Below the pieces are notes generated by a model that saw nothing but the letters and a program-made list of their open reading frames with translations, was not told where the DNA came from and searched no databases. The translations under genes and the position numbers were made by a program. From Flagellimonas amoyensis (GTDB lineage: Bacteria; Bacteroidota; Bacteroidia; Flavobacteriales; Flavobacteriaceae): DNA of 64,000 bases. Below, one piece after another: positions 5,493 through 63,395 of the stretch (positions within the stretch are counted from its first letter, which is position 1; each line of letters opens with the position of its first letter). Location of the stretch: assembly GCF_003058265.1 (NCBI RefSeq), contig NZ_QBUK01000003.1:310001-374000 (forward strand). The letters are read 5' to 3'.

Positions 5493-5510
5493 AACCTCTA
5501 AACACTGACG

Positions 5511-48100: not shown

Positions 48101-51100
48101 TTTGATTACGGATAGCCGTGGATGTACCACGCAATCGAACATGGTGACCATGTCTCCTCCCGAGACCATAGCCGGGTCTGTGGTGGGTACGGATACGCAA
48201 TGTGGAGACATTTCGAGTGGTATTGTGGAGTTAGTTCCTGACACTACACAAGGTATTCCACCGTATGAATACAGTAATGACAATGGGGCGACATTCAGCA
48301 GCCAAAATATCTTTTCGGGTTATGGACCTGGAACGCACGGAGGGTTTGTCATCCGGGACAGTAGGGGCTGTGTGAGCCCGGCCTATTCCGTCACCATAGG
48401 TGCCAGTGATCCTTTGGATGCTTCCGCAACACCCACCGATGCGATTTGTTCATCGGGAGCGGTCGATGGGGAGATATTGGCATCCATCAGCAATGGGGTT
48501 GCACCTTTCGATTATGTATTGGTGGATGAATTTGGGGGAACAGTGGCATCATCAATAGGAACCACCAGTACTTCGGTGAACTTTACCAATCTACCTAGGG
48601 GCAACTATACCCTGATCACTACCGATGCCCAAGGTTGTGAGGACCGAGATCCGGTAGTGATAGACCAAAACCAATTAGATTTGATTCCTTTGGACCCAGC
48701 CCCGACAGATTGTTTTGATACTTCGTTTCCATATCGAGTCCAAGCCGTTGGCGGAACAGCACCCTACGATTTTAGATTGGTGGGTGACCCTACATGGCAG
48801 GATGGAACAGGTCCTGGAGAAGATATATTTGATGTGACCGGATTGGTGGTTCCAGGAGTGACCTACTTTGTAGAAGTGATGGATGCCAACGGTTGTACCT
48901 ATATTGAAGAAATTGACCCCATTGGTCCAACCAATCCTGTTGCTGTGACCGCCACCTCCTTGGCAGCTTCCTGTAATGTGGCAGGAAGTGGCTCCATTGA
49001 TTTTGAGGTATCTGGAATTTCAGCACCTGGAAACTTTACCGTCAGGGTAGAAAACACCGATACTGGAGCAACAGTTTCGACCCAACCATTTACAGGAGAA
49101 ACCATTCCCTATACTGGAACCCTGACCGGATTGGCTCCTGGAAACTATCAGATTATTGTCACGGACGACTTTACGGGATGTAGCTCAAGTACCTTGGCAT
49201 TCATTGACATCAGTGCTGTTTCCATAGCCATCGACAACTTTGTGGAGGCCACGTGTAATGCTGGTGCCTTGGTGACTGTCAGAGGTTTTGGAAGCACAGG
49301 TCCATACACCTATGCCTATGTGCCTTCGGGAGATCCGGCGCCGACAACATTTGTGCCGGAAACCACTTTTGAGGTTCCTGGGCCTTACCCAACGACATAT
49401 GATTTCTATGCCCAAGATGCCAACGGGTGTACGGCTTTCACCACGCTTGCGGTGACCCAAGAGGCCGGTGTTCCAGACCCTATGATCGATGTGGTGAACC
49501 AATGTACGGCCACAAGCGGGTATCAAATCAATATGGTATCGCCGATCACTTCAGGTCCTGAGCCGGAAAATACATTCCAATACAACATCGGAAGTGGTTA
49601 CCAGACAGGAACTACCTTTATTGTGCCCAACCCTGGCACCTATGTGATCACGGTTCGGGATGGAAACGGGTGTACCAATACCGTTACTGCGGAAGTATTC
49701 GATTTCTTCGCCATTACGGCCGATGCCACCTCTTTCCCTACCTGTAATGCAGGGGATGGAGTCATTACAGTGAACACCACGGGGGGTAGTGGAAATTTTG
49801 AATACCAATTGAGGGATGCCCTCACTTTGACAGATCTTGGACCACCACAGTACACCAACGAATTTACCGGTGTGATGCCTGGGGACTACAACATTCTGGT
49901 AACGGATTTGGATTCCAATACATCCCCATTGTGCTCGGATGAGGCCGAAGTTATTGTCTCCACAGTGGATACCCCGATCATTACCGCCACGAACAGTAGC
50001 CATGTGACCTGTAATGGGGCCGATAATGGTACTATTTCCGTAGAACTTCAACCTGGCACAGATACCGATACACCGATTCAATATATCCTGTACCAAGGTT
50101 CCAGTTCGACCATCGTGGCCGGTCCGCAAGGCTCTCCCGTTTTTGATGACCTTCAACCAGGCACCTATCAGGCCGAAGTGGTTTCCGATAGGGGATGTGC
50201 AAATAGATCAGGAGACATCATCATTGGTGAACCATCCCTATTGATGGCCAATGCAATACATACCGAATTTAGCTGTAACCCATCCAGCAATCAGTTCAGT
50301 ACGGCGACCATGACCATTTATACCGATACCAATGGTGATGGAACTGGAACAGCAACTGGAACAGGTCCTTATACCTACAGCATGAACGATGGTACGCCAC
50401 AGTTTGATGGCACCAATTTCCAGACCAGCAATACTTTTGAAGTGATCGATAATGGTACCAATCAGACCATTACCCTCACTGCCCGTGACTATAATGGATG
50501 CGAGGAAACATCAACCATAACCATCAACAGCCCAACAGACATCACTTTTAGTTATAATGTGAACCCTATCACTTGTGATGCTTCGGGAACGGGGGTAAGC
50601 CCAGGTTCCATTGATATCATCATCAACGAAGGACCAGGGGATTACCAAGTCGAAATTCTACCGTTGCTTTCCGAACCAGCAAGAAGTTCTGGAGGCAGTG
50701 ATCGTGTAACCTGGGATATTGCCACTCCCGGTGATTATATTTTCGCCGTGACCGATGTGGGCAGTGGTGGATGTACGTATTTGACCACGACCATCAACAT
50801 GCCCGAATACAATACCATCGAGGCCCTGATCGCCGAGGTGGAACCCGTGACCTGTTTTGATGGAAGAGATGGTTCCATAAGTTTGCAGATCAGCAACTAT
50901 AATGGCGTGTACAATTATGAAGTGTTCACTCGTGATAATGCAGGAGTGGAAACCACTACAGGGGTAACTGGGACTTTTGATACCAATGCCCCGATCAATA
51001 CTCCCGAGATCATCGAAAATTTACCTGCAGGCAACCTGATTGTCCGTATCGAGGCCGTGGATTCGCCCTATTGCGATACCGTGAGCAATGTGACCACAGT

Positions 51101-53417
51101 GCGCTCTCCTGATAGGGAACTGACCGTTGATTTATTGCAAACCTCCCCGGTGACCTGTAATGTGCCCGGTTTGGGTGAAATCACAGCCACTGGCGATGGT
51201 GGATGGGGAACTTACCAATATCAGTTGGTGGCATCCGATGGAACCATTTTGGTGGATTATCCCAATACCAATCCAGTATTTGAAAATCTATCTACAGATA
51301 CATATACGGTAAATATCAGAGATGTGAGAGGTTGTGAGAGATTCAATACCATCAATTTGCCATTGCCTGTGGAAATCACGGCAGACATTCGTGTGGTGAG
51401 CCCATTGGCCTGTAACAACGATAATGATGGGGTCATCGAGGCTTTTGCGGTTTCGGGAGGCCAAGGACCAGGAAATTACCTATACCAATTGAACCGCATC
51501 ACTGACGGTACCAATAGTGGACTCCAGACCACCCCAACCTTTGCCAACCTATCGGCGGGAGATTATACCATCACCATTTTTGACGGATGGAACTGTAGTG
51601 CCCTCACCGATGTGATCACCATTGCCGATCCAGAAATCGTGGTGGCCGAATTGGTGGAGTTGCAACCTCCGGGTTGTGGGGATTTGGGTAGAATGGAATT
51701 AACGGTCACCAATCCTGAGCCCTTGGTCGAGTATTTCTATCGTAAATCAGGTACTTCTGACCCATTTACCCCTTTTGGGGCGGGAATGACCAGTGTAGAG
51801 ATCACAGTGGACATTACTATGGATGCAGGACCTTTCCAGTTTGATGTGCAGAATTCCAATGGCTGTCCTTCAGAGAAATCGAACCAGATCTCCTTGGATC
51901 CAGCGGCACCTTTGGTGGTTTCCTTGGACCTTACCAATGCAACGATCAATTGTGCAGGGGAGTCAACCGCTATCATTCGCTCGGAAGCCTTCGGGGGTAT
52001 TGGAAGTTATACGTACACCTTGGTGAACACGAATACCTTGCCTGTAATGCCAGCCAATATTGTCCGTCCATCACAAAACTCAGGAATCTTTAGGGACCTG
52101 GATGTTGGCACCTACTACGTGTATGCCCAAAGTGGTGGATGTGAAGCCATGTCGGACCCTATCGTCATCGAACCTAAACCACCATTGGTATTGGAATATC
52201 TGGAAGCAGTGCCCGTCATGTGTGCCGGAGATACCAACGGACAGATCATCATCGAGGCCAGTGGAGGTACAGGAAGGATCAGGTACTCCATTTCAGATAC
52301 ATTGAGCGAGTTCTTTGAAGGGGATGACCCGGACAATCCAAACCGAAAAACTTTCAACGATCTTAGCCCTAGGACCTATGACATCATAATTCAGGACGAT
52401 CTAGGATGTACCATAACCCGAACACTGGAAATCACCCAGCCTACGGAACTTGTCGCCGCAGTGGTTTCTACGACTCCAGAGGTATGTATGGGGGATGGTG
52501 ATGGTACCTTGACCTTGGGAGTTTCTGGAGGAACGGCACCCTATTACACCAGTATAAATTCTGTGGACGATGCTGATTTTGTCCAAAATGATACCATGTT
52601 CTTTGATCATCTTCAGGGAGGGGAAACCTATGCCATCTTTATTAGGGATGCGAATGGTTGCCAGACCAACGTGATAGCAGAAATTGGCATTGGAATAAAC
52701 ATTATTGCTGAACCCATAGTGGAATATGGTTGTGAGGGAATATTCCCGAACAGTACGGCCACTGTCAGTATTGCAGACAGTTCACAGCTTTCCGACCTTT
52801 TGTTTTCATTGGATGTGGATGATATTCAACTGGCCACGAACCAAAGGACCTTTGGGGACCTGCCACCAGGTGAACACACGGTATATATTTACCACGCCAA
52901 CGGTTGTGTGACCTTTGTGGAATTTGAAATTGATGCCTACGAGCCACTTACGCTGGAAGCCATGAAAACTGGCCCAAATGAGGTCACGGCCATTGCTACA
53001 GGCGGATTTGGGGGATATGAATATTTCTTCCAAGGGGAGTCCTATGGGGATATCAACACCTTCAACATCAATGTGGATTCAAACATCAACATCATGGTCC
53101 GGGACAGTAATGGTTGTGTGGCCAATCTGGTGCTGCCGTTCAATTTTGAGGGAATGCCCGAAATGCCGCCGTTCTTTACCCCGGATGGTGATAACCTGAA
53201 CGATTACTGGTATCCAGGGAACCGTGAGTTTTTCCCCAATATCGATGTCATTATTTATGATCGATATGGTAGGGTAGTGGCCCGATTGGACCAGGTCAAA
53301 AAATGGGATGGGACCTATGAGGGCAAACCGCTGCCCACTGGTGACTACTGGTATGTGGTGAATGCAAACGATAGGGAAAAGCAACGATTTGTAGGTCACT
53401 TTACACTATACAGATAG
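45111..53417 (+). CDS. Giant SprB-like repeat adhesin with T9SS type-B sorting domain
   Basis: A 2,768-residue secreted protein. Signal peptide 1-27 ends TVLAK. From about residue 180 to 2,650 I count about 28 degenerate repeats of 75-100 residues. Each has a Cys near the start, then GxGxIxV, a GGTGPYxYxI core, LxPGxYxIxVxDxNGC and often a second Cys: the SprB-repeat pattern of F. johnsoniae gliding adhesins. The last 85 residues (FFTPDGDNLNDYWYP, IIYDRYGRVVARLD, WDGTYEGKPLPTGDYWYVV) are the gliding-associated C-terminal (type B) T9SS signal. It is probably a cell-surface filament moved by the Gld/Spr machinery, or an adhesin. It stands alone. Confidence 0.93.
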   Translation: MLPQKTRHLLYAVLLVFISIFGSTVLAKTDVKRILTKIVSTVSAEDAGEEEVVSVPEMPSATEVTYAPASASMFATIIQGSDQQVICPNDGSTLAKFFLCGTSDIRTLSLSQSGSTYQWQQLDPNTCAPTVVDNCPTINGACTWNTVGTGATYNLSTAGEFRVRVNSGQYYYFKSTLNPLNPQLIKEDIVCGNPGRVEVTNVPAGYEYSLNSPAGPYQDTPYFDITSPGTYRVYVRLKNVSASACVFPSNPVTVNDLDINVDVTANDILCSGELGSIDIQVSGVPGFYTYRLIKNGVTVNTFGPNGADSYTFANISPGTYSIRVETNDCSVTITEDVNGDPIVIGGGISPLAVSATASDSFGCGATSVDVNLTTSGGTAPYRFSVDGAPFGSTYASTASFSVTTAGTYSVLVEDANGCQRSASVDVQDIPQPIFNITEEDANCGGANDGRVTVNVTNGFGYEIEYSVNNGTTYQISNVFSNLAPGSYDVVLRYQQDSFTCTTTPQTVTVGTPSTITASATPDFQPTCGNENGGQITISGVLGGTGPYEYSIGAGFGASNVFPNLGVGTYTPMVRDANGCVEALPNIVFSTLNKPTNLDFSISSLDCITTTASLDLVVTGGTGPYTYEIIAPSTSAINNGANNTFTGLGLGTYTFRVTDNEGCSYEENYAITDISSIGVQAQQTRVVTCVGDSDGEGRFLVDGFSTSYSYSIDGGPVFTGQNGSIIPVTGLTAGSYVISVTDEGTNCTDTATLIIEEPSTAFDISGLNVTDMSCQNGNIGAVQINTVGGWGGNRYTLIQPDGSTRGPKSGSTFSNLSLDGTYQVIVADANGCEVTDSFTLTRLDAPTLTLDNGVSDFCYDNFNASTLAVNAAGGLAPYRYRINGGPLEASNSFSGLTPGTYTIEVVDANDCRDTVTATIQPQVMANATIIQELDCAGPPGQIRVNISNGYTSGGNYDIYEVSINGAPYTSDNNNITGNSFVYNVPNDGSIITDTTFQFLITDSRGCTTQSNMVTMSPPETIAGSVVGTDTQCGDISSGIVELVPDTTQGIPPYEYSNDNGATFSSQNIFSGYGPGTHGGFVIRDSRGCVSPAYSVTIGASDPLDASATPTDAICSSGAVDGEILASISNGVAPFDYVLVDEFGGTVASSIGTTSTSVNFTNLPRGNYTLITTDAQGCEDRDPVVIDQNQLDLIPLDPAPTDCFDTSFPYRVQAVGGTAPYDFRLVGDPTWQDGTGPGEDIFDVTGLVVPGVTYFVEVMDANGCTYIEEIDPIGPTNPVAVTATSLAASCNVAGSGSIDFEVSGISAPGNFTVRVENTDTGATVSTQPFTGETIPYTGTLTGLAPGNYQIIVTDDFTGCSSSTLAFIDISAVSIAIDNFVEATCNAGALVTVRGFGSTGPYTYAYVPSGDPAPTTFVPETTFEVPGPYPTTYDFYAQDANGCTAFTTLAVTQEAGVPDPMIDVVNQCTATSGYQINMVSPITSGPEPENTFQYNIGSGYQTGTTFIVPNPGTYVITVRDGNGCTNTVTAEVFDFFAITADATSFPTCNAGDGVITVNTTGGSGNFEYQLRDALTLTDLGPPQYTNEFTGVMPGDYNILVTDLDSNTSPLCSDEAEVIVSTVDTPIITATNSSHVTCNGADNGTISVELQPGTDTDTPIQYILYQGSSSTIVAGPQGSPVFDDLQPGTYQAEVVSDRGCANRSGDIIIGEPSLLMANAIHTEFSCNPSSNQFSTATMTIYTDTNGDGTGTATGTGPYTYSMNDGTPQFDGTNFQTSNTFEVIDNGTNQTITLTARDYNGCEETSTITINSPTDITFSYNVNPITCDASGTGVSPGSIDIIINEGPGDYQVEILPLLSEPARSSGGSDRVTWDIATPGDYIFAVTDVGSGGCTYLTTTINMPEYNTIEALIAEVEPVTCFDGRDGSISLQISNYNGVYNYEVFTRDNAGVETTTGVTGTFDTNAPINTPEIIENLPAGNLIVRIEAVDSPYCDTVSNVTTVRSPDRELTVDLLQTSPVTCNVPGLGEITATGDGGWGTYQYQLVASDGTILVDYPNTNPVFENLSTDTYTVNIRDVRGCERFNTINLPLPVEITADIRVVSPLACNNDNDGVIEAFAVSGGQGPGNYLYQLNRITDGTNSGLQTTPTFANLSAGDYTITIFDGWNCSALTDVITIADPEIVVAELVELQPPGCGDLGRMELTVTNPEPLVEYFYRKSGTSDPFTPFGAGMTSVEITVDITMDAGPFQFDVQNSNGCPSEKSNQISLDPAAPLVVSLDLTNATINCAGESTAIIRSEAFGGIGSYTYTLVNTNTLPVMPANIVRPSQNSGIFRDLDVGTYYVYAQSGGCEAMSDPIVIEPKPPLVLEYLEAVPVMCAGDTNGQIIIEASGGTGRIRYSISDTLSEFFEGDDPDNPNRKTFNDLSPRTYDIIIQDDLGCTITRTLEITQPTELVAAVVSTTPEVCMGDGDGTLTLGVSGGTAPYYTSINSVDDADFVQNDTMFFDHLQGGETYAIFIRDANGCQTNVIAEIGIGINIIAEPIVEYGCEGIFPNSTATVSIADSSQLSDLLFSLDVDDIQLATNQRTFGDLPPGEHTVYIYHANGCVTFVEFEIDAYEPLTLEAMKTGPNEVTAIATGGFGGYEYFFQGESYGDINTFNINVDSNINIMVRDSNGCVANLVLPFNFEGMPEMPPFFTPDGDNLNDYWYPGNREFFPNIDVIIYDRYGRVVARLDQVKKWDGTYEGKPLPTGDYWYVVNANDREKQRFVGHFTLYR

Positions 53418-53685: not shown

Positions 53686-53759
53686 CGGGATGTGGCGCAG
53701 TCTGGTAGCGTACACGCATGGGGTGCGTGTGGTCGCTGGTTCGAATCCAGTCATCCCGA
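53686..53759 (+). tRNA. tRNA-Pro (anticodon GGG)
   Basis: A 74-nt cloverleaf: acceptor arms CGGGATG and CATCCCG (discriminator A at 53759), D-arm with TCTGGTAGCGTA, anticodon stem CACGC/GCGTG around the loop ATGGGGT giving GGG, and T-arm CTGGTTCGAATCCAG. CCA is not encoded (the next bases are CGA). The integrase gene lies 222 bp downstream, pointing away, so the tRNA 3' end is the probable attachment site of the island. Confidence 0.92.
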
Positions 53760-53802
53760 CGAACCATGGTTTTATGACACTAAGTAAAACCTTAATTAAT
53801 TG

Positions 53803-53836
53803 AAAACCAGAAAATTAATTTTTTCTGGTTTTTTTT
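53803..53836 (+). terminator. Intrinsic terminator after tRNA-Pro
   Basis: Arms AAAACCAGAAAA (53803-53814) and TTTTCTGGTTTT (53821-53832) with a 6-nt loop and a following T-run to 53836. Confidence 0.8.
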
Positions 53837-53981
53837 ATTTCCATCTGAAACCATCGGTGAGGATGTCCTATAGAGTGTCCTATTTTTGTCGGGAAAAATT
53901 CCCTAAATTGTACTTCCATTATTGATTTTTCGTGTGATTTGACTTTCGCTTCAACCAATGTTTCACTTAAAGCGAGAACAC

Positions 53982-55256
53982 ATGAATACCTCTAACTCCT
54001 TCAGTATCAGTTTTTGGCTGAAAAAATCAGGAAGAAAAAAAGATGGACGGTTTCCAATTTATGTCCGGATCAGATGTAAAGGAAAAAATGCAGATCTCAG
54101 TGTCCATAGATCAACTTTTGAAGAACGATGGTGTCCTATTTTGGGAAAAATGGACCATAGGGCCAGTGAATCCGTTGTTGTAAACAAATATCTGGACGAC
54201 GTCCGTGCAAAGTTGCTGGAATGCCATCGGCAACTTAGTGCCGAGAGTAACTTTATAACGGCACAATCCATCAAGCTTCGATATCTGGGAAAGGACAAGG
54301 TGATGCTCACCCTATTGGACCTTTTGGAGTACAACCGAACCTATGAGTTGCCCAAACTGGCCAAAGGGACGGTCAAGAACTATTCCTCCACAGAGACCTA
54401 CCTGAAACGCTTCATTGCCAAAAAATATCGGGTACCCGATATTGGGCTGGCCTCGATAGACTATGCCTTTTTGATCGAGTTTGAAAACTTCCTGCGGAAC
54501 TGCGAACCCATCAAATCGTTCCAGACATTGAACAACAACGGTATCATGAAACATATGCTGCGGTTCAAGAAATTGGTGACCATGGCCTATAAATTTGATT
54601 GTATCCCCAAGAATCCCTTCAATCTGTATAAAGTGAAAATGGAGGATTATGACAGTGCTTTCTTGGAAGAGGAGGAAATTCTGGCGCTGGACCAATTGGA
54701 ATTCGAGGAAAAGGGCATGGAACTGGTCCGGGATATTTTCCTTTTTGCCTGTTATACCGGACTCAGCTACATAGAGATCAAACTTCTCAATCCCAATGGT
54801 ATCGTATCCGGCATCGACGGGGAACTCTGGATCGATGTAAAACGCCAAAAGACCAAGACCGAAGTGAAGGTTCCCCTATTGCCCAAAGCCAAGAAAATCT
54901 TGGAGAAGTATGTGGATTTTCCCAAAAATGAAAATACCGTTCTTCCAGTGTATTCCAATCAAAAGGTGAACCAATACCTAAAGATCATTGCACAAAGGGC
55001 AAATATTGATAAGCACCTAACCTTCCATGTGGCCAGACATACCTTTGCAACGACAATCACCTTAATGAACGACGTGCCCATTGAGACCGTTTCCAAACTC
55101 CTCGGGCATACCAAGCTTTCAACGACCCAAAAGTATGCTAGGGTCGTGGAAAAGAAAATCAGCAAGGACATGGCCCAGTTGAAGGAGAAATTGGGAAGCG
55201 GGCAAAGTAAAGCGAACGACAATTCGGAATATCCGACCCTAAAGATTATCAGGTAA
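53982..55256 (+). CDS. Tyrosine-type site-specific integrase (IntDOT-like)
   Basis: A 424-residue recombinase with an arm-binding start (SISFWLKKSGRKKDG), a SAM-like core-binding domain (about 105-210) and a catalytic domain. Catalytic residues are His349-x-x-Arg352 (FHVARHTFATT), His376 (LLGHTKLS) and the nucleophile Tyr385; lysines at 290-294 lie in the beta-hairpin. The first conserved arginine of the family is replaced by Ser262 in CYTGLSYIE, as in the Bacteroides CTnDOT integrase. I start at 53982 (MNTSNSF); a Met at 53958 is eight codons earlier. It lies just downstream of tRNA-Pro and marks the left end of an integrated island. Confidence 0.92.
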   Translation: MNTSNSFSISFWLKKSGRKKDGRFPIYVRIRCKGKNADLSVHRSTFEERWCPILGKMDHRASESVVVNKYLDDVRAKLLECHRQLSAESNFITAQSIKLRYLGKDKVMLTLLDLLEYNRTYELPKLAKGTVKNYSSTETYLKRFIAKKYRVPDIGLASIDYAFLIEFENFLRNCEPIKSFQTLNNNGIMKHMLRFKKLVTMAYKFDCIPKNPFNLYKVKMEDYDSAFLEEEEILALDQLEFEEKGMELVRDIFLFACYTGLSYIEIKLLNPNGIVSGIDGELWIDVKRQKTKTEVKVPLLPKAKKILEKYVDFPKNENTVLPVYSNQKVNQYLKIIAQRANIDKHLTFHVARHTFATTITLMNDVPIETVSKLLGHTKLSTTQKYARVVEKKISKDMAQLKEKLGSGQSKANDNSEYPTLKIIR

Positions 55257-55294
55257 TGTGACCCAGGGCTTGATATTGTTCTTTTGCCACCCAT

Positions 55295-55318
55295 TTATTT
55301 TAGAGTTTGCTAAAATAA
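55295..55318. promoter_or_regulatory. Candidate ArsR-type operator (mer cassette)
   Basis: A perfect inverted repeat TTATTTTAG (55295-55303) / CTAAAATAA (55310-55318) with a 6-nt centre, ending 22 bp before the ArsR-type gene. Size and place fit an ArsR/SmtB dimer site for autorepression. Confidence 0.6.
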
Positions 55319-55340
55319 TAAATTACTGTAACTTCGTAGT

Positions 55341-55724
55341 ATGGATAAGAACATATGCATACGTTTGGAGGCGGATGCCAAACAGATAATGGAATGCAGG
55401 GAAACTATGCAAAATTTGGAAAATTCCATGGACTCCCTTTCAGGGATAATGAATTTAATGGGCAATCCGGTTCGGCTTAAGATTCTCTACCTTTTGAACC
55501 AAGAGCAACGCTTATGTGTCTGTGACCTTAGTGATATACTGGAAATGAATGTATCCGCAATTTCACAACATTTGCGCAAGCTCAAGGACAGAAATTTGAT
55601 CACATCCCAAAAGGAAGGCCAGATGATCCATTATTCCTTGGTGACCGATCATTCGCCGTTACTTTTTCCAATTTTTGACCTGCTCGATAAAAAAGAACAA
55701 ATAAAACCAGTAAACCATGAATAA
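55341..55724 (+). CDS. ArsR/SmtB-family metalloregulator of the mer-like cassette
   Basis: A 127-residue winged-helix repressor. The metal-binding Cys pair is in RLCVCDL (Cys59, Cys61) at the start of alpha-3, the classical ArsR site; extra cysteines occur at 6 and 19 in the N-terminus and could complete a Hg/As/Cd site. The recognition helix is near VSAISQHLRKLKD. It overlaps the merTP start by 8 bp, so it represses its own cassette, probably through the inverted repeat at 55295-55318. Confidence 0.9.
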   Translation: MDKNICIRLEADAKQIMECRETMQNLENSMDSLSGIMNLMGNPVRLKILYLLNQEQRLCVCDLSDILEMNVSAISQHLRKLKDRNLITSQKEGQMIHYSLVTDHSPLLFPIFDLLDKKEQIKPVNHE

Positions 55725-56319
55725 CAAGAAAACCTTAATGGGATCTTCCATTATTTTGGCCATGGCCACCTCCCTTTGTTGCATAGGACCACTTTTGGCC
55801 ATTGTGGCCGGAACATCTGGCCTGGCGTCCAATTTTAAGTTTTTGGAACCGTTCAGACCGTATTTGATCGGAATTACGGGTTTGGTTTTGGTAGTGGCGT
55901 GGTACCAACAGTTAAGGACAGTCGCCAAAAAGGAAATAGACTGTGCATGCGATACGGACGAAAAGCCGGCCTTTTGGAAGGGTAAAATTTGGTTGATGAC
56001 CATCACGGTCTTTGCCTTAGCGATGCTTGCCTTTCCCTATTATGCCCAATCTTTGTACCCGAAACAGGAAGCCAAGGGTCAAACGAACTTTTTTGCGAGC
56101 CAAGATGTCAAGGAAATCAATATTCCGGTCGTGGGAATGACATGCAGTGGGTGCGAGGCACATATTGAACACGAGGTCAATGGACTTGATGGGATCATCA
56201 TGGTCAAGGCAGATTACCAAAAAGCCAATGCACAGATAATGTACGATCCCGCCAAAACCACCAGGGATGCTATCGTGAACGCCATTTTGAAAACCGGATA
56301 CACCATAAAGGACCAGTGA
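55717..56319 (+). CDS. merTP: Mercuric transport protein MerTP (MerT-MerP fusion)
   Basis: A 200-residue protein. The N-terminal part has three membrane segments (about 10-32, 45-63, 88-107) with the MerT vicinal pair Cys21-Cys22 in the first and a cytoplasmic Cys76/Cys78 pair. The C-terminal part (from about 133) is an HMA domain with GMTCSGC (Cys143, Cys146), equivalent to periplasmic MerP. It would pass Hg(II) or a related soft metal inward. It overlaps both neighbours (8 bp with the regulator). No mercuric reductase gene is present in the window. Confidence 0.88.
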   Translation: MNNKKTLMGSSIILAMATSLCCIGPLLAIVAGTSGLASNFKFLEPFRPYLIGITGLVLVVAWYQQLRTVAKKEIDCACDTDEKPAFWKGKIWLMTITVFALAMLAFPYYAQSLYPKQEAKGQTNFFASQDVKEINIPVVGMTCSGCEAHIEHEVNGLDGIIMVKADYQKANAQIMYDPAKTTRDAIVNAILKTGYTIKDQ

Positions 56320-56321
56320 TA

Positions 56322-56534
56322 ATGGATATCAATCTGTACTCTACAATTACCTGTCCGCATTGTGGCAATTCCAAAGAGGAAAAGATGCCTACGGATTCTT
56401 GTCAGTTCTTTTATGAATGTGAAAATTGCGGCTCCATTCTAAGGCCCAAAAATGGCGATTGTTGCGTGTATTGTTCCTTTGGTTCGGTGGCCTGTCCCCC
56501 CATTCAGGCAACATCCGGATGTTGTGGTACATGA
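56322..56534 (+). CDS. GDCCVxC-domain small cysteine-rich protein
   Basis: A 70-residue protein with eleven cysteines: a zinc-ribbon-like pair of CPHC (11-14) and CENC (33-36), then GDCCVYC (46-51), ACPPIQ and a terminal GCC. The GDCCVxC family travels with mer-type transporters and in some members the motif contains selenocysteine; here it is all cysteine. I use ATG 56322, 2 bp after the merTP stop; a GTG at 56316 overlapping the merTP end is an alternative. It probably binds the metal delivered by MerTP, but this is inferred. Confidence 0.85.
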   Translation: MDINLYSTITCPHCGNSKEEKMPTDSCQFFYECENCGSILRPKNGDCCVYCSFGSVACPPIQATSGCCGT

Positions 56535-56609
56535 CCAAGTGACCCTGAAAATTTGTAAAGCCTTGGTTTGAACCTAAGTATTTTTATCGAAAATCTTTTT
56601 ATGTTGAAT

Positions 56610-56627
56610 CAATATATTGTAATATTG
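56610..56627. promoter_or_regulatory. Candidate ArsR operator of the ars regulator gene
   Basis: Inverted repeat CAATAT (56610-56615) / ATATTG (56622-56627) with a 6-nt centre, 15 bp before the second ArsR gene. The word ATTGCGAT next to it recurs in the inverted repeat at 56992-57013. Confidence 0.45.
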
Positions 56628-56642
56628 CGATAAAATAATGAT

Positions 56643-56975
56643 ATGGGACTGGCAAAGACCGAAATATTTACCGAAAACCAGAATGAGCTCGCCCTCATCG
56701 GTAAGGTATTTGCCCATCCCGCCCGGATTGCCATATTGCAGCACCTCTTCAAGGTCAAGGCCTGTGTCTGTGGTGACCTTGTGGACGAGATAGGACTGGC
56801 ACAGCCTACGGTTTCACAACACTTGAAGGAACTCCGGAACATGGGACTCATCAAGGGCGATGTGGAGGGCACCAGTGTCTGTTACTGTGTCAATGTGGCA
56901 AATTGGAACGAAATGAAGGATAAGTTCAAGGCATTCCTCGATCAGGGGATTGAACTGGACCAAGAGTGCTGTTAG
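56643..56975 (+). CDS. arsR: ArsR-family arsenic-responsive repressor
   Basis: A 110-residue winged-helix protein. The arsenite site is the ACVCGDL motif (Cys41, Cys43), followed by the recognition helix AQPTVSQHLKELRNMGL. It ends ECC, extra potential thiol ligands. It lies 68 bp upstream of the exported pseudo-arsenate reductase gene, and an inverted repeat occurs both before it and before that gene, so it probably controls the whole ars operon to 60615. Confidence 0.92.
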   Translation: MGLAKTEIFTENQNELALIGKVFAHPARIAILQHLFKVKACVCGDLVDEIGLAQPTVSQHLKELRNMGLIKGDVEGTSVCYCVNVANWNEMKDKFKAFLDQGIELDQECC

Positions 56976-56991
56976 TATTTTTTTGAACCCA

Positions 56992-57013
56992 TTAATCGTT
57001 TTATTGCGATTAA
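56992..57013. promoter_or_regulatory. Candidate ArsR operator upstream of the ars operon genes
   Basis: Perfect 7-bp arms TTAATCG (56992-56998) and CGATTAA (57007-57013) around an 8-nt centre, 30 bp before the ATG at 57044 and 16 bp after the arsR stop. The right half ATTGCGATTAA resembles ATTGCGATAAA next to the site at 56610-56627. Confidence 0.5.
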
Positions 57014-57043
57014 CTAATAAACTGAAACCATAAAATAGAAACC

Positions 57044-57676
57044 ATGAAAACAAAAATGATCCTAACCATGGCACTGCTGCTGTTGTGCCTCCCATTGACC
57101 ACACATTCCCAGGAACTGAGGGGAAAGATCCAACGCTCCGTAAAGGAACTGAAGACCGTTTTTCCCCAGATACCCAAAGAAAAGATCCAGCTTTTGGACC
57201 AACTCGCCGCCAGAATGGTGTCCAATATGGGGGAGACCCCTTATACCGTTGTATTTGTGGACCAGGACAATGACGATATGGGCCAATTGGCCATGATCTG
57301 GCTCAGGACGGGCCTTATGTACTACGGATTATATGACAGGTTCAAGGTGGAATCCGCTGGTCTGGATACCGCCAATGAGACCCTTCCCGGTCTGGCCCTG
57401 CTGAAGAACGATGGGTTCAGGGTCTCCAATGCGCAGGGCGAATCCCTGTTCACGTATTCGGTCCGCTATGGCTCCGATAGTTGGACCATCAACAGAAAGA
57501 CCCTCGAATCCTTACATTTGGACGAGGACAGCAGTGTCAAGGTATATGTACAGGATGGGCTGACGGACCGAAATGCAGAGGTCCTTTTTGAAAACAAGGC
57601 CGTCATCGCGGGGGAAATGATCTATGTCGCCACCCAGGTCGATGCTATTATCAAAGCTAAAATGAACAATCCATGA
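57044..57676 (+). CDS. Exported cysteine-free pseudo-arsenate reductase (LMW-PTP-like fold)
   Basis: A 210-residue protein with a signal peptide (1-22, ending THSQ). I do not know a named family, but residues 48-143 align almost without gaps to the arsenate reductase encoded at 58160: LLDQLAARMVS with ILDPLAGFIQS, VVFVDQDNDDMGQLAMIWLR with LNFICTHNSRRSHLSQIWAQ, then ESAG with YSGG and LKNDGFRVS with LGKQGFQIQ. The catalytic CX5R loop is lost: Asp73 stands at the Cys and Met79 at the Arg, and the mature protein has no cysteine. It must act outside the cytoplasm and cannot be a thiol reductase. It overlaps the DUF6428 gene by 4 bp, so it is an ars operon member. Confidence 0.7.
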   Translation: MKTKMILTMALLLLCLPLTTHSQELRGKIQRSVKELKTVFPQIPKEKIQLLDQLAARMVSNMGETPYTVVFVDQDNDDMGQLAMIWLRTGLMYYGLYDRFKVESAGLDTANETLPGLALLKNDGFRVSNAQGESLFTYSVRYGSDSWTINRKTLESLHLDEDSSVKVYVQDGLTDRNAEVLFENKAVIAGEMIYVATQVDAIIKAKMNNP

Positions 57677-58143
57677 AATTATCAGAAGTAAAAGAAGTAC
57701 TGTCCCGATTGGAAACCCTTGGCTTCCAATTGCCCACCGGGGAAATGGTCCCCGGACATTTCCATGTCACCGAAGTGGGGAAGATTCACAAACACTTTAT
57801 AGACTGCGGGGGAACCGTGCGCCATGAGGAAGTGGTCAGTTTCCAACTGTGGGAGGCCAACGACTATGACCACAGGTTGCATCCCGAAAAGTTGGTTCAT
57901 ATCATCGAACTGTCCCAAAAGGTATTGGAAATAGAGGACTCACTGGAAGTCGAAGTGGAATACCAGGGCACCACTATCGGAAAATATGGCCTTGCCTTTG
58001 ATGAAGGGCATTTTCTGTTGACCACCAAGATGACCGACTGCCTTGCCAAGGACCAGTGTGGGGTCCCCGAAAAGAAACCAAAGGTAAGACTGTCCCAATT
58101 GAAAAGTGAGCCCTGCTGTTCCCCGGACGGCAATTGTTGCTAA
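57673..58143 (+). CDS. DUF6428 family protein
   Basis: A 156-residue cytoplasmic protein of the DUF6428 family, which I know from ars operons of Bacteroidota between arsR and arsenate reductase. It has HFHVTEVGKIHKHFIDCGG near 29-47, VSFQLWEANDYDHRLHP near 56-72, a metal-like His/Cys content, and ends CCSPDGNCC, a likely arsenic- or metal-binding tail. Its start overlaps the preceding stop (ATGA) and arsenate reductase follows after 16 bp. Molecular function unknown; an arsenic chaperone or sensor is plausible. Confidence 0.85.
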   Translation: MKLSEVKEVLSRLETLGFQLPTGEMVPGHFHVTEVGKIHKHFIDCGGTVRHEEVVSFQLWEANDYDHRLHPEKLVHIIELSQKVLEIEDSLEVEVEYQGTTIGKYGLAFDEGHFLLTTKMTDCLAKDQCGVPEKKPKVRLSQLKSEPCCSPDGNCC

Positions 58144-58159
58144 ATCTTAATTCTATATA

Positions 58160-58792
58160 ATGACTACGACCACAACTAGCCTGTTCCCTGAAATAGCGGG
58201 ATTCATCACAACCTTGAAACTGGATGCCGTTTCCCCGGAGCGTAGGGAAATCCTTGATCCCCTTGCCGGGTTCATACAGTCGAAAGTTTCCGAAGATCAG
58301 GAAATACGCCTGAATTTCATTTGCACCCACAATTCCAGGAGGAGCCACCTGTCACAGATATGGGCACAGGCCATGGCTTTCCATTTCAACATCAAGAACG
58401 TATTTTGCTATTCGGGGGGGACCGAAGCCACGGCCCTGTTCCCGATGGTGGCGGAAACCTTGGGGAAACAAGGGTTCCAGATCCAACAGCTTTCACAGGG
58501 ACAAAATCCTGTCTATGCCATCAAATATGCGGAAAATGCCCATCCGGTGATCGGGTTCTCCAAGAAAATGGACGATGCCTTCAACCCCAGTTCCGGCTTT
58601 GGGGCCATCATGACCTGTGATTCGGCCAATGAGGCCTGTCCCTTTGTGCCCGGTGCGGAAAAGCGCATCCCCATCACCTTTGAGGATCCCAAGGCCTTTG
58701 ACAATACCCCGCAACAGGCCGAGAAATACCTTGAAAGGAGCATACAGATAGCAACGGAACTTTGGTATGTATTTTCACAGATCAAATCATAA
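58160..58792 (+). CDS. Arsenate reductase, low-molecular-weight phosphatase type
   Basis: A 210-residue protein with the anion-binding CX5R loop CTHNSRR (Cys55, Arg61) and two further cysteines in MTCDSANEACPFVPG (Cys153, Cys160) suited to a thioredoxin-coupled thiol relay, then FEDPKAF with the Asp-Pro expected of the family. It should reduce arsenate to arsenite in the cytoplasm for export by the ACR3 pump encoded 3 bp downstream. The first 48 residues are a helical extension compared with B. subtilis ArsC (139 residues), as in the flavobacterial form. Confidence 0.9.
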   Translation: MTTTTTSLFPEIAGFITTLKLDAVSPERREILDPLAGFIQSKVSEDQEIRLNFICTHNSRRSHLSQIWAQAMAFHFNIKNVFCYSGGTEATALFPMVAETLGKQGFQIQQLSQGQNPVYAIKYAENAHPVIGFSKKMDDAFNPSSGFGAIMTCDSANEACPFVPGAEKRIPITFEDPKAFDNTPQQAEKYLERSIQIATELWYVFSQIKS

Positions 58793-58795
58793 CAC

Positions 58796-59842
58796 ATGGC
58801 AGTAAAAAAATTGAGCTTTTTGGACAGGAACCTTACCCTTTGGATCTTTATCGCCATGGCGGTAGGGGTCGGTATCGGTTACTTCTTCCCGTCCTTCCCC
58901 GACATCATCAATTCGTTCAACAGCGGCACCACTAACATCCCCATTGCCATAGGTCTCATCCTGATGATGTACCCACCTTTGGCAAAAGTGGATTATAAAC
59001 TGTTGCCCAAGGTGTTCAAGAACACCAGGATCTTGACCATTTCCCTGGTGCTCAACTGGATCATCGGCCCCGTGTTGATGTTCGTCCTGGCCATCCTCTT
59101 TTTGAGGGACTATCCCGAGTATATGGTCGGATTGATATTGATAGGTTTGGCCCGTTGCATTGCCATGGTGCTGGTCTGGAATGACCTGGCCGAGGGCAGT
59201 GCGGAATATGGTGCGGGACTGGTGGCCCTGAACAGTATCTTCCAAGTGTTTGCCTACAGTTTCTATGCGTGGATCTTTATCACCGTTTTGCCCCCATATT
59301 TTGGCTTTGAAGGGGCCATTGTGGACATCTCCATAGGGACCATAGCGGAGAGTGTGGCCATTTATTTGGGCATCCCCTTCCTTATGGGCATCCTTAGCCG
59401 AACGATATTGGTCCGGATCAAAGGGGAACAGTGGTATGCCCAAAAGTTTGTTCCCGCCATTTCTCCCATGACCTTGATCGCCCTGTTGTTCACCATTGTG
59501 ATCATGTTCTCCCTCAAAGGGGAACTTATCGTGGAGATTCCCATGGACGTGGTGGTGATCGCCATACCCCTCTTGGTGTACTTTACCCTGATGTTCATCA
59601 TTGGGTTCTTTTTCACCAAGGCGATGGGTGCCGAATATGACAAGACCGCTTCGGTGGCCTTTACAGCAGCCGGGAACAACTTTGAGCTCGCCATTGCCGT
59701 GGCCATTGCCGTCTTCGGACTGGATTCCGGCCAGGCCTTTGCAGGGGTCATCGGGCCCTTGGTGGAAGTTCCTGCCCTGATTCTGTTGGTAAGGGTCGCC
59801 TTTTGGTTGCGCAAAAAGTATTTTAAACCGCAAACCGCATAA
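58796..59842 (+). CDS. arsB: ACR3-family arsenite efflux permease
   Basis: A 348-residue polytopic protein with about ten membrane helices. The conserved functional cysteine is in [20 protein letters not shown] (Cys121). [19 protein letters not shown] near 295-313 is the second hallmark. It expels arsenite using the proton gradient. Named arsB here by convention for ACR3 pumps, though it is unrelated to E. coli ArsB. It stands 3 bp after arsenate reductase and 2 bp before the metallophosphoesterase gene. Confidence 0.95.
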
Positions 59843-59844
59843 GG

Positions 59845-60615
59845 ATGAAAATTGCACTCTTCTCGGACATCCACGCCAACCTTCCTGCCCTTGAGGCCTT
59901 TTTTGTGGATGTGGAAAAACATAGGCCGGACGCCATCTATTGCCTTGGGGACCTTGTGGGCTATAACATCTGGCCCAACGAGGTGGTCCATGAGATCAGA
60001 AAACGCCGGATACCCACCATTGCGGGCAACTATGATTTTGGCATCGGACGCAACAGTGATGATTGTGGCTGTGCCTACAAGAGCGATGAGGAAAAGGCGA
60101 ACGGGGCAATTTCCATATCCTATACCAACTCCATTATGGGGGATGATGAAAGGGCCTACCTGAAAAACCTTCCATCCCATATCAATGTGGAGTTCAAAAG
60201 GAACGATGAAACAGTGAACCTACTCCTGGTGCATGGAAGCCCAAGACGAATCAACGAGTATCTTTTCGAGGACCGGAAGGAGAAGAGCCTGGTACGCATC
60301 CTGCGGGATGCAAATGCCGATATCCTCTGTTTTGGACATACACACCAACCCTATCACAAGGCCCTTTTGGATTATGATGGAGGCACCATATACCGCCATG
60401 CGATAAATATCGGATCCATCGGAAAGCCCAAGGATGGCGACAATAGGGGATGCTATGTGCTGTTGAACATGGATGGGAACTTCCGTAGGCCGGACAAGAA
60501 TAGCATCCATGTGGAGTTTGTACGCTTCGAATATGATGTCGAAAAGGCGGCCAAAGCCGTTGAGGGCAGCATATTGCCCAACGCTTACGCTGGAGCATTG
60601 AGAAAGGCCCATTGA
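59845..60615 (+). CDS. Calcineurin-like metallophosphoesterase in the ars operon
   Basis: A 256-residue cytoplasmic phosphoesterase with every metal motif of the family: FSDIHANLPAL (Asp8, His10), CLGDLVGY, AGNYDFGIGR, LVHGSPRRINEY and FGHTHQPYHK. It resembles YfcE/DNA-phosphodiesterase-like proteins of about 250 residues. Its start is 2 bp after the ACR3 stop, so it is clearly an operon member, which suggests a link to arsenic or phosphate stress. The substrate is unknown. Confidence 0.87.
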   Translation: MKIALFSDIHANLPALEAFFVDVEKHRPDAIYCLGDLVGYNIWPNEVVHEIRKRRIPTIAGNYDFGIGRNSDDCGCAYKSDEEKANGAISISYTNSIMGDDERAYLKNLPSHINVEFKRNDETVNLLLVHGSPRRINEYLFEDRKEKSLVRILRDANADILCFGHTHQPYHKALLDYDGGTIYRHAINIGSIGKPKDGDNRGCYVLLNMDGNFRRPDKNSIHVEFVRFEYDVEKAAKAVEGSILPNAYAGALRKAH

Positions 60616-60937
60616 TTATTTTTTAAGGCCTTAGTCTAAATATTTTCTTGTAAGACAATCCAAATCTGTGATGAATTTTGTAAGGAACAATGTAAGTACA
60701 AGAATATAACAGGCAACTTGGTGGAAATATTTTCCATTGTAAATCTACCCTTGATCAGCATTTAAGGGAATTGAAAACCATGGTCAGTTACAGGGAAATT
60801 TTACCACTACTAAAGCTTCATCCTTAATTGACAAAGGAAATAGGAAGAGTGAAAAATAAAAGTTTCACCAACCTCTTTGTATACATATCCTGTGTAGGCT
60901 GGCACACCATTAAACCGAAAGCCATAAAAGCAAAGCC
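60616..60937. other. Intergenic region before the SigZ module, no gene seen
   Basis: A 322-bp AT-rich stretch with no TAnnTTTG/TTG promoter that I could identify. A 15-codon frame at 60779 (MVSYREILPLL) has a start like IS21 IstA proteins but stops at once. A GTATAC palindrome lies at 60880-60885. Confidence 0.6.
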
Positions 60938-61534
60938 ATGAAAAAGAAATGTTGCGATATTAATGAACAGATCGAAAGTTTCTACAGTTATTTAAAATAC
61001 TTTACCTTAAAAAAGGTTCGGGATGAAACCATTGCGGAAGATATTGTGCAAGAGGTAATGCTGAAACTGGTCGAGTCCTATCAAAAAAATAGGGAAATTG
61101 AAAACATCAAGGCCTGGCTGTTTCAAGTTGCCAGAAATACCATTTATGACCATTTCAAAAAGAGTGCCCCAATTGTTGAACTTAGTGATGTAAAGATACT
61201 TGAGGCAACTGAACCAACCAATCTGGAGCTATCCGTGTATGATCATATGATACCCATGATCCAGTTCCTTCCCAAAAAATATGCCGAGCCTTTACAATGG
61301 AGTGACATCGACAAACTATCCCAAAAAGATGTAGCTGAAAAGCTGAACTTGGGGTATTCGGCTGCAAAAATGCGGGTGCAAAGGGCAAGAACAAAGCTAA
61401 GGGAATTATTTGTGGAATGCTGTGATATCGTATATGATGCCAATGGCAACTTCGTCAATTGCTCTGTTAAGGAATCGTGTATCCCGTTAATAAACCACTT
61501 GGTTGATTTTCAGGCATCCACAAAGTACAAATAG
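60938..61534 (+). CDS. sigZ: SigZ-like ECF sigma factor (first of two)
   Basis: A 198-residue sigma-70 family factor. Region 2 is at about 10-75 (ETIAEDIVQEVMLKLVES, IKAWLFQVARNTIYDHFKK) and region 4 at about 110-160 (LSQKDVAEKLNLGYSAAKMRVQRARTKL). After the HTH comes a tail with CCDIVYDANGNFVNC and ESC, a cysteine pattern typical of SigZ proteins and a possible metal or redox sensor. It opens with KKKCCDINEQ, with two more cysteines. No anti-sigma gene is adjacent. A similar factor is encoded at 62856. Confidence 0.88.
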   Translation: MKKKCCDINEQIESFYSYLKYFTLKKVRDETIAEDIVQEVMLKLVESYQKNREIENIKAWLFQVARNTIYDHFKKSAPIVELSDVKILEATEPTNLELSVYDHMIPMIQFLPKKYAEPLQWSDIDKLSQKDVAEKLNLGYSAAKMRVQRARTKLRELFVECCDIVYDANGNFVNCSVKESCIPLINHLVDFQASTKYK

Positions 61535-61567
61535 GTAGAATCATTTTTTTATTGAGAATTGTGTCTT

Positions 61568-61605
61568 TTGACACGCCATTTTAGACTACATAGTAAAGTT
61601 TATTT
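61568..61605 (+). promoter_or_regulatory. Candidate SigZ-type promoter upstream of the thioredoxin-like gene
   Basis: TTG at 61568-61570, a 22-nt spacer, then GTAAAGTTTATTTAAAA from 61593. A similar TTG, 21-nt spacer and GTAAACTTTAATCTTAAAA precede the DUF2703 gene (63417-63459). It overlaps the small hairpin GTGTC-TTTT-GACAC at 61561-61574. Confidence 0.35.
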
Positions 61606-61619
61606 AAAATTACTGAACT

Positions 61620-61856
61620 ATGAGTACTGAAGTCAAAATTTTACATTCATCCTGCTGCGCCACTGCATCCCCCATAAGGGCACAAATCGAAAAAATTGCC
61701 AGTGAAAACCATCTGGACGTAAACATCACCGAGTTTTCTGACCTCAAGGACACCATGCCCTACGGGGTCCTTACCTTTCCTGCATTGGTCATTGACGGGA
61801 AGGTTTATGACTATAAAAAAGTCAGCAACGACAAGGTGTTATTAGCAATTCTTTAA
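61620..61856 (+). CDS. Small thioredoxin-like redox protein
   Basis: A 78-residue thioredoxin-fold protein of the MTH895/TM0996 type: strand VKILHSS, then Cys12-Cys13 in SSCCATASPI, and the cis-proline end MPYGVLTFPALVIDGKVYDYKKV. The family normally has CxxC; here the cysteines are adjacent, so it may carry a metal or use a vicinal pair. It is 12 bp upstream of the permease gene, an arrangement seen in YraQ/ArsP permease loci where the small protein may deliver or reduce the substrate. Confidence 0.85.
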   Translation: MSTEVKILHSSCCATASPIRAQIEKIASENHLDVNITEFSDLKDTMPYGVLTFPALVIDGKVYDYKKVSNDKVLLAIL

Positions 61857-61868
61857 AACGTTTTTAAG

Positions 61869-62843
61869 ATGGAAATCTTTACAAAACTGCTTACCCGACT
61901 GGCAGACTATGTTGTCCATGTCCTTTTGGGTATTCCTGATACGGATACATTCGGCTCAGCATTACACTATTTCATCATTGCCTTTGGCTCTATTTCCATT
62001 CTGGTTGTGCTGGTGACCTATGTAATGGGAGTGGTAACAAGCTATTTGCCCATGGAAAAAATCCGGGATTATTTGGAGAAACACAAAAAATCAGGTCTTG
62101 GGAATGTTGTGGCCTCCTCTTTGGGTGCCTTGACACCTTTTTGCTCGTGTTCTTCCATTCCTTTGTTCGTGGGAATGATGCAGGTCAGGATCCCACTGGG
62201 AATTTCACTTTCCTTCCTCATAACCTCACCCTTGGTGAACGAAATCGCTATTGCCATTTTCTGGTTGGGCTATGGTTGGAAAGTTACAATAGTGTACCTA
62301 CTTTCAGGAATCGTCTTGGGGGTGATCGGTGGAATTATCCTGGAAAAGATGGGTATGGCCAAATATGTGGCAGAATGGCTCAAGGACAATGAATGGAAAG
62401 CGCATTCGAGGGAAAAGGATAGCAGAAATTTGCTGAAACGATTTCCTGGAATTCATCGGGAGGCCATTCGGACCCTTAAAAACCTTGTCCCCTATATTTT
62501 TATAGGAATTGCAATAGGGTCATTTATCCACGGCTATGTCCCCGAGTCATTTTTTGGCACCTATATTTCAAAATCCAACCCTTTTGCGATTCCCATTGCC
62601 GTATTGGTATCGATTCCATTGTACATTGATGCGGTTGGAATCCTGCCCATATTGGATTCGCTCGTTGACAAAGGGGTTCCGTTAGGGACGGCCATGGCCT
62701 TTATCATGGGTTCGATCGGACTTTCCATCCCCGAAGGCCTGCTGCTCCAAAAAGTGATGCAAAGGCAGTTGATCATTGCCTTCTTTTCAACTATTGCCAT
62801 TGGAATGATCATTTCCGGTTATTTGTTCAACCTCCTTTTTTAA
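61869..62843 (+). CDS. YraQ/DUF318-family permease (ArsP / Cu-Zn efflux-like)
   Basis: A 324-residue inner-membrane protein with two symmetrical repeats of about four helices. The landmark TPFCSCSSIPLF (Cys92, Cys94) lies at the first re-entrant helix, followed by the ITSPLVNEIAIAIF helix; the second repeat contains IPLYIDAVGILPILDSL and SIPEGLLLQKV. The family includes ArsP, which exports trivalent organoarsenicals, and SO_0444-type metal exporters. In this island, with ArsR and ACR3, an arsenical or soft-metal substrate is the likeliest. It lies between two sigma factor genes. Confidence 0.9.
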   Translation: MEIFTKLLTRLADYVVHVLLGIPDTDTFGSALHYFIIAFGSISILVVLVTYVMGVVTSYLPMEKIRDYLEKHKKSGLGNVVASSLGALTPFCSCSSIPLFVGMMQVRIPLGISLSFLITSPLVNEIAIAIFWLGYGWKVTIVYLLSGIVLGVIGGIILEKMGMAKYVAEWLKDNEWKAHSREKDSRNLLKRFPGIHREAIRTLKNLVPYIFIGIAIGSFIHGYVPESFFGTYISKSNPFAIPIAVLVSIPLYIDAVGILPILDSLVDKGVPLGTAMAFIMGSIGLSIPEGLLLQKVMQRQLIIAFFSTIAIGMIISGYLFNLLF

Positions 62844-62855: not shown

Positions 62856-63395
62856 ATGAAATGTGATATATTCAATATTTGGGAAGACCTTCGGACTGAT
62901 TTAAGGAACTATGTGGGCAAGCGTGTTTACAATGAGCATGATGTTGATGATATAATGCAAACGATTCTTATCAAGGTCATAACATATTGTGAGAAAAAAA
63001 ATGACGTAAGATATATAAAGGCTTGGTTATACAGGATTGCACAACATACAATTTTTGACTTTTACAAGAAGCCAAGAAAGACCACACTTGTTGACCTGGA
63101 ACAGTTGCACCTGTTTGTTCCGGATGAATATGATGAAAACGTCTTTGTTTGGCTCGATAAGTTTATAAATGGTCTCCCTATCGACTATTCAACTCCCTTG
63201 AGACTTTCGGATATAGAAGGCCTTCCGCAGAAAAGTATTGCCGCGCATCTGGGCTTGACATTATCGGCAACAAAGTCAAGGATCTTAAGGGCAAGGAAAA
63301 AGGTTAGGGCAAAGTTTGATGAATGTGGTGAAGTTGAATATTCTGAAAACCAAATGTGGAGATTTACCATTACAAAATCCTGTTGCCTATCATAA
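62856..63395 (+). CDS. SigZ-like ECF sigma factor (second of two)
   Basis: A 179-residue sigma factor. Region 2 is at about 25-75 (VDDIMQTILIKVITY, IKAWLYRIAQHTIFDFYKK) and region 4 at about 110-150 (LPQKSIAAHLGLTLSATKSRILRARKKV). It ends with DECGEVEYSENQ and TKSCCLS, fewer cysteines than the first copy but in the same positions. It starts 12 bp after the permease gene. Similarity to the product of 60938 is clear in both domains, but the two are diverged and not a recent duplicate. Confidence 0.88.
   Translation: MKCDIFNIWEDLRTDLRNYVGKRVYNEHDVDDIMQTILIKVITYCEKKNDVRYIKAWLYRIAQHTIFDFYKKPRKTTLVDLEQLHLFVPDEYDENVFVWLDKFINGLPIDYSTPLRLSDIEGLPQKSIAAHLGLTLSATKSRILRARKKVRAKFDECGEVEYSENQMWRFTITKSCCLS

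Follow-up and report, generated by a model that had tools for sequence, protein, structure and literature searches.

Arsenic resistance encoded by ars operons is usually viewed as reduction in the cytoplasm followed by export, and the ars locus of Flagellimonas amoyensis raises the question of what an apparently exported relative of the arsenate reductase ArsC, with its catalytic residues replaced, could contribute to such an operon. The locus lies in a window of 64,000 nucleotides (contig NZ_QBUK01000003.1, positions 310,001 to 374,000); its features are collected in Table 1. The protein in question, for which we use the name PS (exported ArsC-like pseudoenzyme), is encoded by an ORF of 210 codons with an ATG start. 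We propose that PS is a pseudoenzyme derived from the ArsC family of Bacteroidota, exported and under the control of ArsR, and that it most likely functions as a non-covalent binding protein in the periplasm, a reading that we hold with moderate confidence.

Table 1 Features of the arsenic locus in the window and of one comparison locus (L138, own coordinates)
Feature	Position	Strand	Basis or remark
tRNA-Pro	53686-53760	+	Island edge
Recombinase-like ORF	53958-55256	+	Named by eye; island edge
ArsR-type operator (inverted repeat) before arsR	56615-56631	+	Sole other match in the genome
arsR (ArsR/SmtB repressor)	56643-56975	+	Pfam HTH_5 1.1e-12; NCBIfam HTH_metalloreg 2.9e-19
ArsR-type operator (inverted repeat) before PS	56994-57010	+	33 nt before the ATG
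PS	57044-57676	+	ORF; homology to ArsC
Predicted signal peptide of PS	57044-57109	+	Residues 1-22; from hydropathy and alignment
Former P-loop of PS, DQDNDDMGQ (residues 73-81)	57260-57286	+	Replaces CTHNSRRSH of ArsC; alignments
DUF6428 protein	57673-58143	+	Pfam PF20001 2.6e-64
Bacteroidota-type ArsC	58160-58792	+	CTHNSRR, CX6C and DP present
ACR3 arsenite efflux pump	58796-59842	+	TIGR00832 1.5e-134
Calcineurin-like phosphoesterase	59845-60615	+	Pfam; recurrent in these ars clusters
L138 exported-looking ArsC and DsbD pair	5727-6485, 4380-5720	-	

The likeness of PS to an arsenate reductase, claimed in the first-pass annotation from a match to the ArsC encoded nearby downstream, is upheld by the following sequence comparisons. 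In a direct BLASTP comparison of the two proteins, the genes of which are separated by the single gene for the DUF6428 protein, 25 of 110 aligned residues are identical, with 6 gap positions and a pair E-value of 2e-5. A hidden Markov model built from 39 presumably cytosolic ArsC rows (L083 among them is doubtful) assigns 41.4 bits to mature PS versus at most 7.3 bits to any of 2000 shuffles of the same sequence, and each of the 13 PS rows (those of 12 genomes plus locus L036) matches this model at 6.9e-14 or better. Comparison of the PS and ArsC profiles by hhalign, with signal peptides removed, yielded a probability of 99.1 and an E-value of 1.1e-18 (the value for one single comparison) over 176 columns; the control, the phosphoesterase of the same operon, gave 0.52. 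The ArsC profile that includes exported rows, in turn, reaches the solved ArsC of B. subtilis at 2.6e-16, so that the chain leading from PS through the Bacteroidota ArsC to the solved ArsC holds. There is thus strong support from sequence comparison for the homology of PS to the ArsC/LMW-PTP superfamily over nearly the entire length, specifically, to the Bacteroidota branch of the thioredoxin-coupled ArsC (the pI258 and B. subtilis type, with the LMW-PTP fold), including the N-terminal extension of that branch.

Unlike these enzymes, PS looks exported and, judging by its residues, is inactive. In the alignment with ArsC, Asp73 of PS occupies the position of the nucleophilic Cys and Met79 that of the Arg in the CX5R loop, as the first-pass annotation had read them. 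Asp is found at the former position in 13 of the 13 PS rows and Arg at the latter in none (Lys in 4), with some remnants of the P-loop retained, namely, Asn at +3 in 11 rows and Ser at +7 in 9. The mature part contains no Cys in 11 of the 13 rows, among them the protein of the window, for which this had been noted before and where C15, within the signal peptide, is the sole Cys of the precursor; the rows from L004 and L005 have one (C62, before the loop). Since no row retains two Cys in its mature part, the resolving pair CX6C is gone; in the window protein, the first of these Cys aligns with Gln170, and the second is opposite a gap of 10 residues. The Asp-Pro motif is likewise absent from the last 60 residues of all 13 rows and is replaced in the window protein by Asn-Lys (Asn162-Lys163 in the PS-type numbering of the alignment), the next 17 residues being missing. 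Because the nucleophile, the Arg, the Cys pair and Asp-Pro are all absent, reduction or dephosphorylation by the mechanism of the ArsC family can be considered excluded by sequence, and the loss of chemistry claimed at the outset is borne out and extended to two further motifs. What the family retains instead is a set of 16 residues that are invariant in the mature part across the 13 aligned rows, including Asp73, the sole charged one, Gln81, Trp86, Thr89, Tyr93, Tyr94 and Trp147. No basic residue of the mature part is invariant in these rows, which, along with the loss of the Arg and the replacement of Cys by Asp, makes an anion site of the classical P-loop type less likely. Replacement of the catalytic Cys by Asp is known among the pseudoenzymes of protein phosphatases, in the D2 domains of some receptor tyrosine phosphatases; the loss there is of the same kind, and the fold class and the compartment are different.

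The N-terminus of PS consists of MKTK, a hydrophobic core and the sequence THS followed by Gln23, an arrangement resembling a Sec signal. The best mean hydropathy over 10 residues in this region is 2.90, compared to 1.55 in the neighbouring ArsC, which agrees with the signal peptide proposed in the first-pass annotation. A signal-like N-terminus, with hydropathy of 2.5-3.5, is apparent in 13 of the 13 rows, and Gln follows the presumed cleavage site in every one of them. On this basis, export of PS via a Sec signal peptide is predicted.

The genomic neighbourhood ties PS to arsenic. The gene directly upstream is arsR in 10 of the 12 genomes, ACR3 belongs to the same cluster in 8, and the Bacteroidota-type ArsC shares the operon in 6; in the seven named Flagellimonas/Muricauda genomes, where PS is 93-100% identical, arsR occupies the same place in every case. 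The ArsR of the window contains a CVC motif and a C-terminal CC, as detected by eye. The start of the DUF6428 gene overlaps the stop of PS by 4 nt, suggesting that the two are likely to be on one transcript. Two genomes (G236 and G657) have a stand-alone PS, located between an OsmC-like gene and an Rrf2/sulfate-assimilation cluster (named by look), and carry ArsC and ACR3 elsewhere. No ACR3 was detected in G113 by the query used. G1072 likewise yielded no ACR3 and, PS aside, no ArsC of the Bacteroidota type, but a short ArsC-like ORF is present there at another arsR locus. The survey did not reveal homologues commonly lacking ars genes, the outcome that would have spoken against the arsenic link drawn in the first-pass annotation, and even the two stand-alone copies keep an ArsR-type operator.

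This operator is an inverted repeat of the form TTAATCG-N3-TATTGCRATWAA. In all 13 loci (the 12 genomes and L036), its end is located 22-35 nt upstream of the PS start codon; in the two stand-alone copies, for which the start was placed at MKTK, three codons into the ORF, the distances are 22 and 29 nt. Across the 12 genomes, 36 sites match the pattern WATYGYWWTATYGCRAT, compared to 0 for the reversed control; 16 are located before PS and 17 before arsR-like genes, another separates arsR from a DUF6428-like gene, and the remaining two are found inside a gene (G285) and in contig 14 of G657. Since the pattern was derived from the PS sites, which match by construction, the telling part is that elsewhere it occurs almost exclusively at arsR, as well as at the stand-alone PS genes; in the genome of the window, there are just two matches, before arsR and before PS. 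The pattern is also present in many ArsC loci that lack PS, as expected of an ars operator, and a second operator box special to PS was considered and rejected given that two matches are found in several such loci among those fetched (for example, L010, L020 and L021). Taken together, these observations suggest that PS is under ArsR control.

Several other genes of these clusters attract attention in their own right. The calcineurin-like phosphoesterase recurs in L038, L040, L041, L101 and L113 and is located directly behind PS in G108 and G113. In the ars cluster of G054, a glycine-cleavage H protein (L038:8688-9068; PF01597, 1e-42) is encoded between the phosphoesterase and ACR3. The DUF6428 protein of the window has a Cys-rich tail, and a distant relative is encoded behind a second arsR with an ArsR box in G1072, G113 and G108 (L140, L141 and L144); a literature search on DUF6428 found no paper.

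Conservation of Asp73, Gln81, Thr89, Tyr93, Tyr94 and Trp147, combined with the loss of the chemistry, makes a binding role the most likely one. Under the scenario that we favour, arsenite entering the cell would cause ArsR to leave the operator before PS, and PS would then be synthesized and exported through the inner membrane during arsenic stress. In the periplasm, it would catalyse neither redox nor phosphatase reactions of the ArsC kind and would most likely bind non-covalently via a rebuilt pocket, in which Asp73, Gln81, Tyr93/94 and Trp147 may be grouped, and/or via its surface, holding a ligand or a partner protein there for as long as the stress persists. With respect to what is bound, our expectation is split among an oxyacid of arsenic or phosphate, a protein partner and something else, with about one third each.

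A more specific version of this scenario, which sharpens the role suggested in the first-pass annotation and which we consider doubtful, is that PS is a periplasmic receptor or buffer for oxyanions in which the nest of the old P-loop, with Asp73 accepting the proton of the acid, reversibly binds protonated arsenate, phosphate or arsenous acid, possibly for sensing or for keeping the oxyanion from phosphate uptake. The partly kept structural residues of the P-loop, the invariant Asp and Tyr pair and the ArsR-type operator are compatible with such a role, against which count the Arg lost from every row, the lack of an invariant basic residue, the net charge of the mature protein, which ranges from -7 to +12 over the family, and the lack of a sensor kinase evident by eye among the listed neighbours of PS. 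The argument that a site without basic residues would not bind an oxyanion was dropped, however: according to PMC5908839, AioX and ArrX bind arsenic oxyanions without Arg or Lys, the AioX pocket being formed by Tyr, Cys, Ser, His and Asp. Periplasmic, arsenic-linked binding without catalysis, proposed here for PS from sequence, is established for AioX, ArxX and ArrX; unlike PS, they have a PhnD-like periplasmic-binding fold and belong to an XSR signalling cluster, as described in the same paper.

The invariant Asp73 could also serve a chemistry of its own, as the nucleophile or base of some other periplasmic reaction. The presence of this residue in all 13 rows, accompanied by conserved Gln, Thr, Tyr and Trp, would fit a new Asp-based enzyme; given that Asp-Pro and the Arg are gone and that no other charged residue of the mature part is invariant, we regard this explanation as improbable and retain that of a binding protein.

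A profile search of 397 Flavobacteriaceae genomes, in which few candidates per genome were scored, such that misses are possible, produced 13 matches at 1e-18 or better, 12 of which, each at 209 bits or more, are PS; the 13th, from G521, scores 70 bits and is an intact-loop ArsC. Two other genomes of the genus of the window among the 397 yielded no PS, and samples of 395 genomes from the order and 395 from the phylum yielded no score at the PS level outside Flavobacteriaceae, the lower-scoring matches with fetched loci being ArsC with CTHNSRRS. In a search of IMG/VR with the PS profile, 16 stretches matched a pattern, none of them a relative, and the ArsC query produced no stretch; a search of plasmids for PS gave no match.

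In phylogenetic trees, PS forms one clade (support 100/99) with a long stem. The first tree comprised 86 rows, with near-copies from L031-L034 omitted, and the second comprised 64, namely, 13 PS, 12 exported ArsC, 30 earlier chosen ArsC and 9 ArsC from new loci; the attachment point of PS is loose, and the program warns of long branches. The possibility that PS arose by recent duplication of the adjacent ArsC was rejected on the strength of its separate clade and long stem, which is not nested within the Flavobacteriaceae ArsC. PS rows from outside Flagellimonas are 27-38% identical to the window protein, which implies that the family is old. Comparison of the window with L036, a single genome pair, gave dN/dS values of 0.153 for PS, 0.133 for ArsC, 0.091 for the DUF6428 protein, 0.067 for ACR3 (calculated on the first 900 nt) and zero for ArsR, indicating that PS is constrained. 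That PS is a decaying, functionless remnant of an exported ArsC might be argued from the lost catalytic residues, from its presence in merely 12 of the 397 genomes and absence from the two congeners, and from its having the weakest constraint among the five genes; however, the dN/dS is close to that of ArsC, and the intact frame, the signal-like N-terminus and the operator persist in all 13 loci despite the low identity outside Flagellimonas, so that we find this explanation very improbable.

In the window, PS is part of a mobile arsenic/mercury island (53686-62843) that consists of the tRNA-Pro, the recombinase-like ORF, ArsR1, MerTP, the ars genes, a SigZ-like sigma factor and ArsP. From the recombinase-like ORF to ArsP (for the latter, 805 of 975 nt were covered), five named species share 99.8-100% DNA identity, whereas their flanking gene is 77-91% identical; this combination indicates that Flagellimonas owes its PS in part to recent transfer. 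In L036 and L037 (10.6 kb compared), the match is limited to the segment from arsR to ACR3, at 92-94%. Three ORFs in and around the island were noticed by eye: a small, CC-containing, thioredoxin-like one before ArsP (61620-61856), a second sigma-factor-like one after ArsP (62856-63395) and, left of the island, one for a repetitive surface-type protein of 2768 aa (45111-53417).

The LMW-PTP fold, which the first-pass annotation had assigned to PS, is moderately supported; the assignment is carried by the homology rather than by structure prediction because the models are poor to middling. AlphaFold2 run on an alignment of PS only (5 near-identical rows) reached a pLDDT of 37.9, and this model was set aside as fold evidence; addition of three ArsC rows, which bias the model towards the ArsC fold, raised the pLDDT to 64.4, with a pTM of 0.62. 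The best Foldseek match of the PS model was a yeast LMW-PTP at E 0.031, with none at 0.001 or better. In VIA-align, where Z under 8 can reflect a common arrangement, LMW-PTPs scored Z 5.7-6.8 with rmsd 2.4-3.5 and the B. subtilis ArsC Z 6.0, and SIS-domain isomerases scored as high, with Z up to 7.2 at an rmsd of about 4. Sequence databases were silent: Pfam and NCBIfam contain no family with a credible E-value for PS, and no model in either names any of the 13 rows, the best E-values of 0.011 and 0.016 being at chance level (a Pfam CUE match at 0.2 was dropped for this reason); among the PDB sequences, none matches the single protein, and the PS profile produced one meaningless match, to an RNA-binding protein, at E 2.3. 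That the similarity to ArsC is local or fortuitous and PS adopts a different fold, as these misses, the weak models and the tie with SIS domains might suggest, is hardly credible in view of the near full-length profile match, the shuffling result and the match of every row to the ArsC model.

PS is not the only member of the ArsC family with an apparent signal peptide. Exported-looking ArsC that keep the active site (CTHNSRRS), recognized by N-terminal hydropathy, occur in Bacteroidota: 4 of the 73 ArsC-type ORFs (L083 doubtful) in the loci from the order, phylum and earlier searches, and 11 of the 22 in 21 loci picked for long frames or family, the latter figure not being a rate. Two pairs in this set, L124/L128 and L125/L127, are near-copies, and L101 requires an internal start. 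Many of these genes, like PS, are located beside arsR. The order arsR, methyltransferase, exported ArsC is seen in L098, L121 and L124 (by Pfam) and in L128, L135 and L136 (by eye); L130 has arsR, DUF6428 and exported ArsC; L101 has exported ArsC, ACR3 and phosphoesterase; L096 has arsR, glyoxalase, exported ArsC, aquaporin and a short ArsC; and L138 has arsR, a lipoprotein-like ArsC, DsbD (DsbD_TM 7.3e-27, Thioredoxin_7 6e-11) and a second ArsC. The exported ArsC of L097, L125, L127 and L131 have no ars neighbour in the stretch fetched, which argues against a strict link of this group to arsenic. The DsbD neighbour, a single case, suggests a supply of reductant to a periplasmic ArsC, which makes the ArsC and the DsbD-type reductase of L138 a candidate periplasmic arsenate reductase system.

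These proteins share with PS the signal-like N-terminus and the ArsC domain; unlike PS, they keep CTHNSRRS and the Cys pair and, by sequence, should be able to reduce arsenate. The exported ArsC of L096 further shares with PS the stretch W-L-x-T ... Y-Y-G-L, and a Trp is present in the region of Trp147 in those of L096 and L130 (all by eye). PS could be a dead descendant of an exported active ArsC; a single clade of exported active ArsC with PS as a branch was not supported, the former being scattered among other rows of the tree. The most far-reaching version of the history would be that export, the change of Cys to Asp and the loss of the Arg and the redox pair converted a covalent arsenate enzyme into a periplasmic protein that reversibly binds a protonated arsenic oxyacid, as a receptor or buffer. 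It would be produced solely in response to arsenite sensed by ArsR, would guard against re-uptake, and would derive from an undescribed periplasmic class of ArsC, some of which are fed by DsbD-type reductants; taken as a whole, this proposition is unlikely.

PMC9751042 and PMC5492636 treat ArsC as a cytoplasmic or ordinary detoxifying enzyme, and our literature searches, whose coverage excluded most subscription papers, found no description of an exported or Cys-less ArsC. PS and the exported ArsC with intact active sites suggest that Bacteroidota also handle arsenic at a periplasmic level, which has been missed by annotation. Together, the active forms of ArsC, cytosolic and exported, and the dead exported form may offer a way to study how an enzyme with a phosphatase fold becomes a binding protein.
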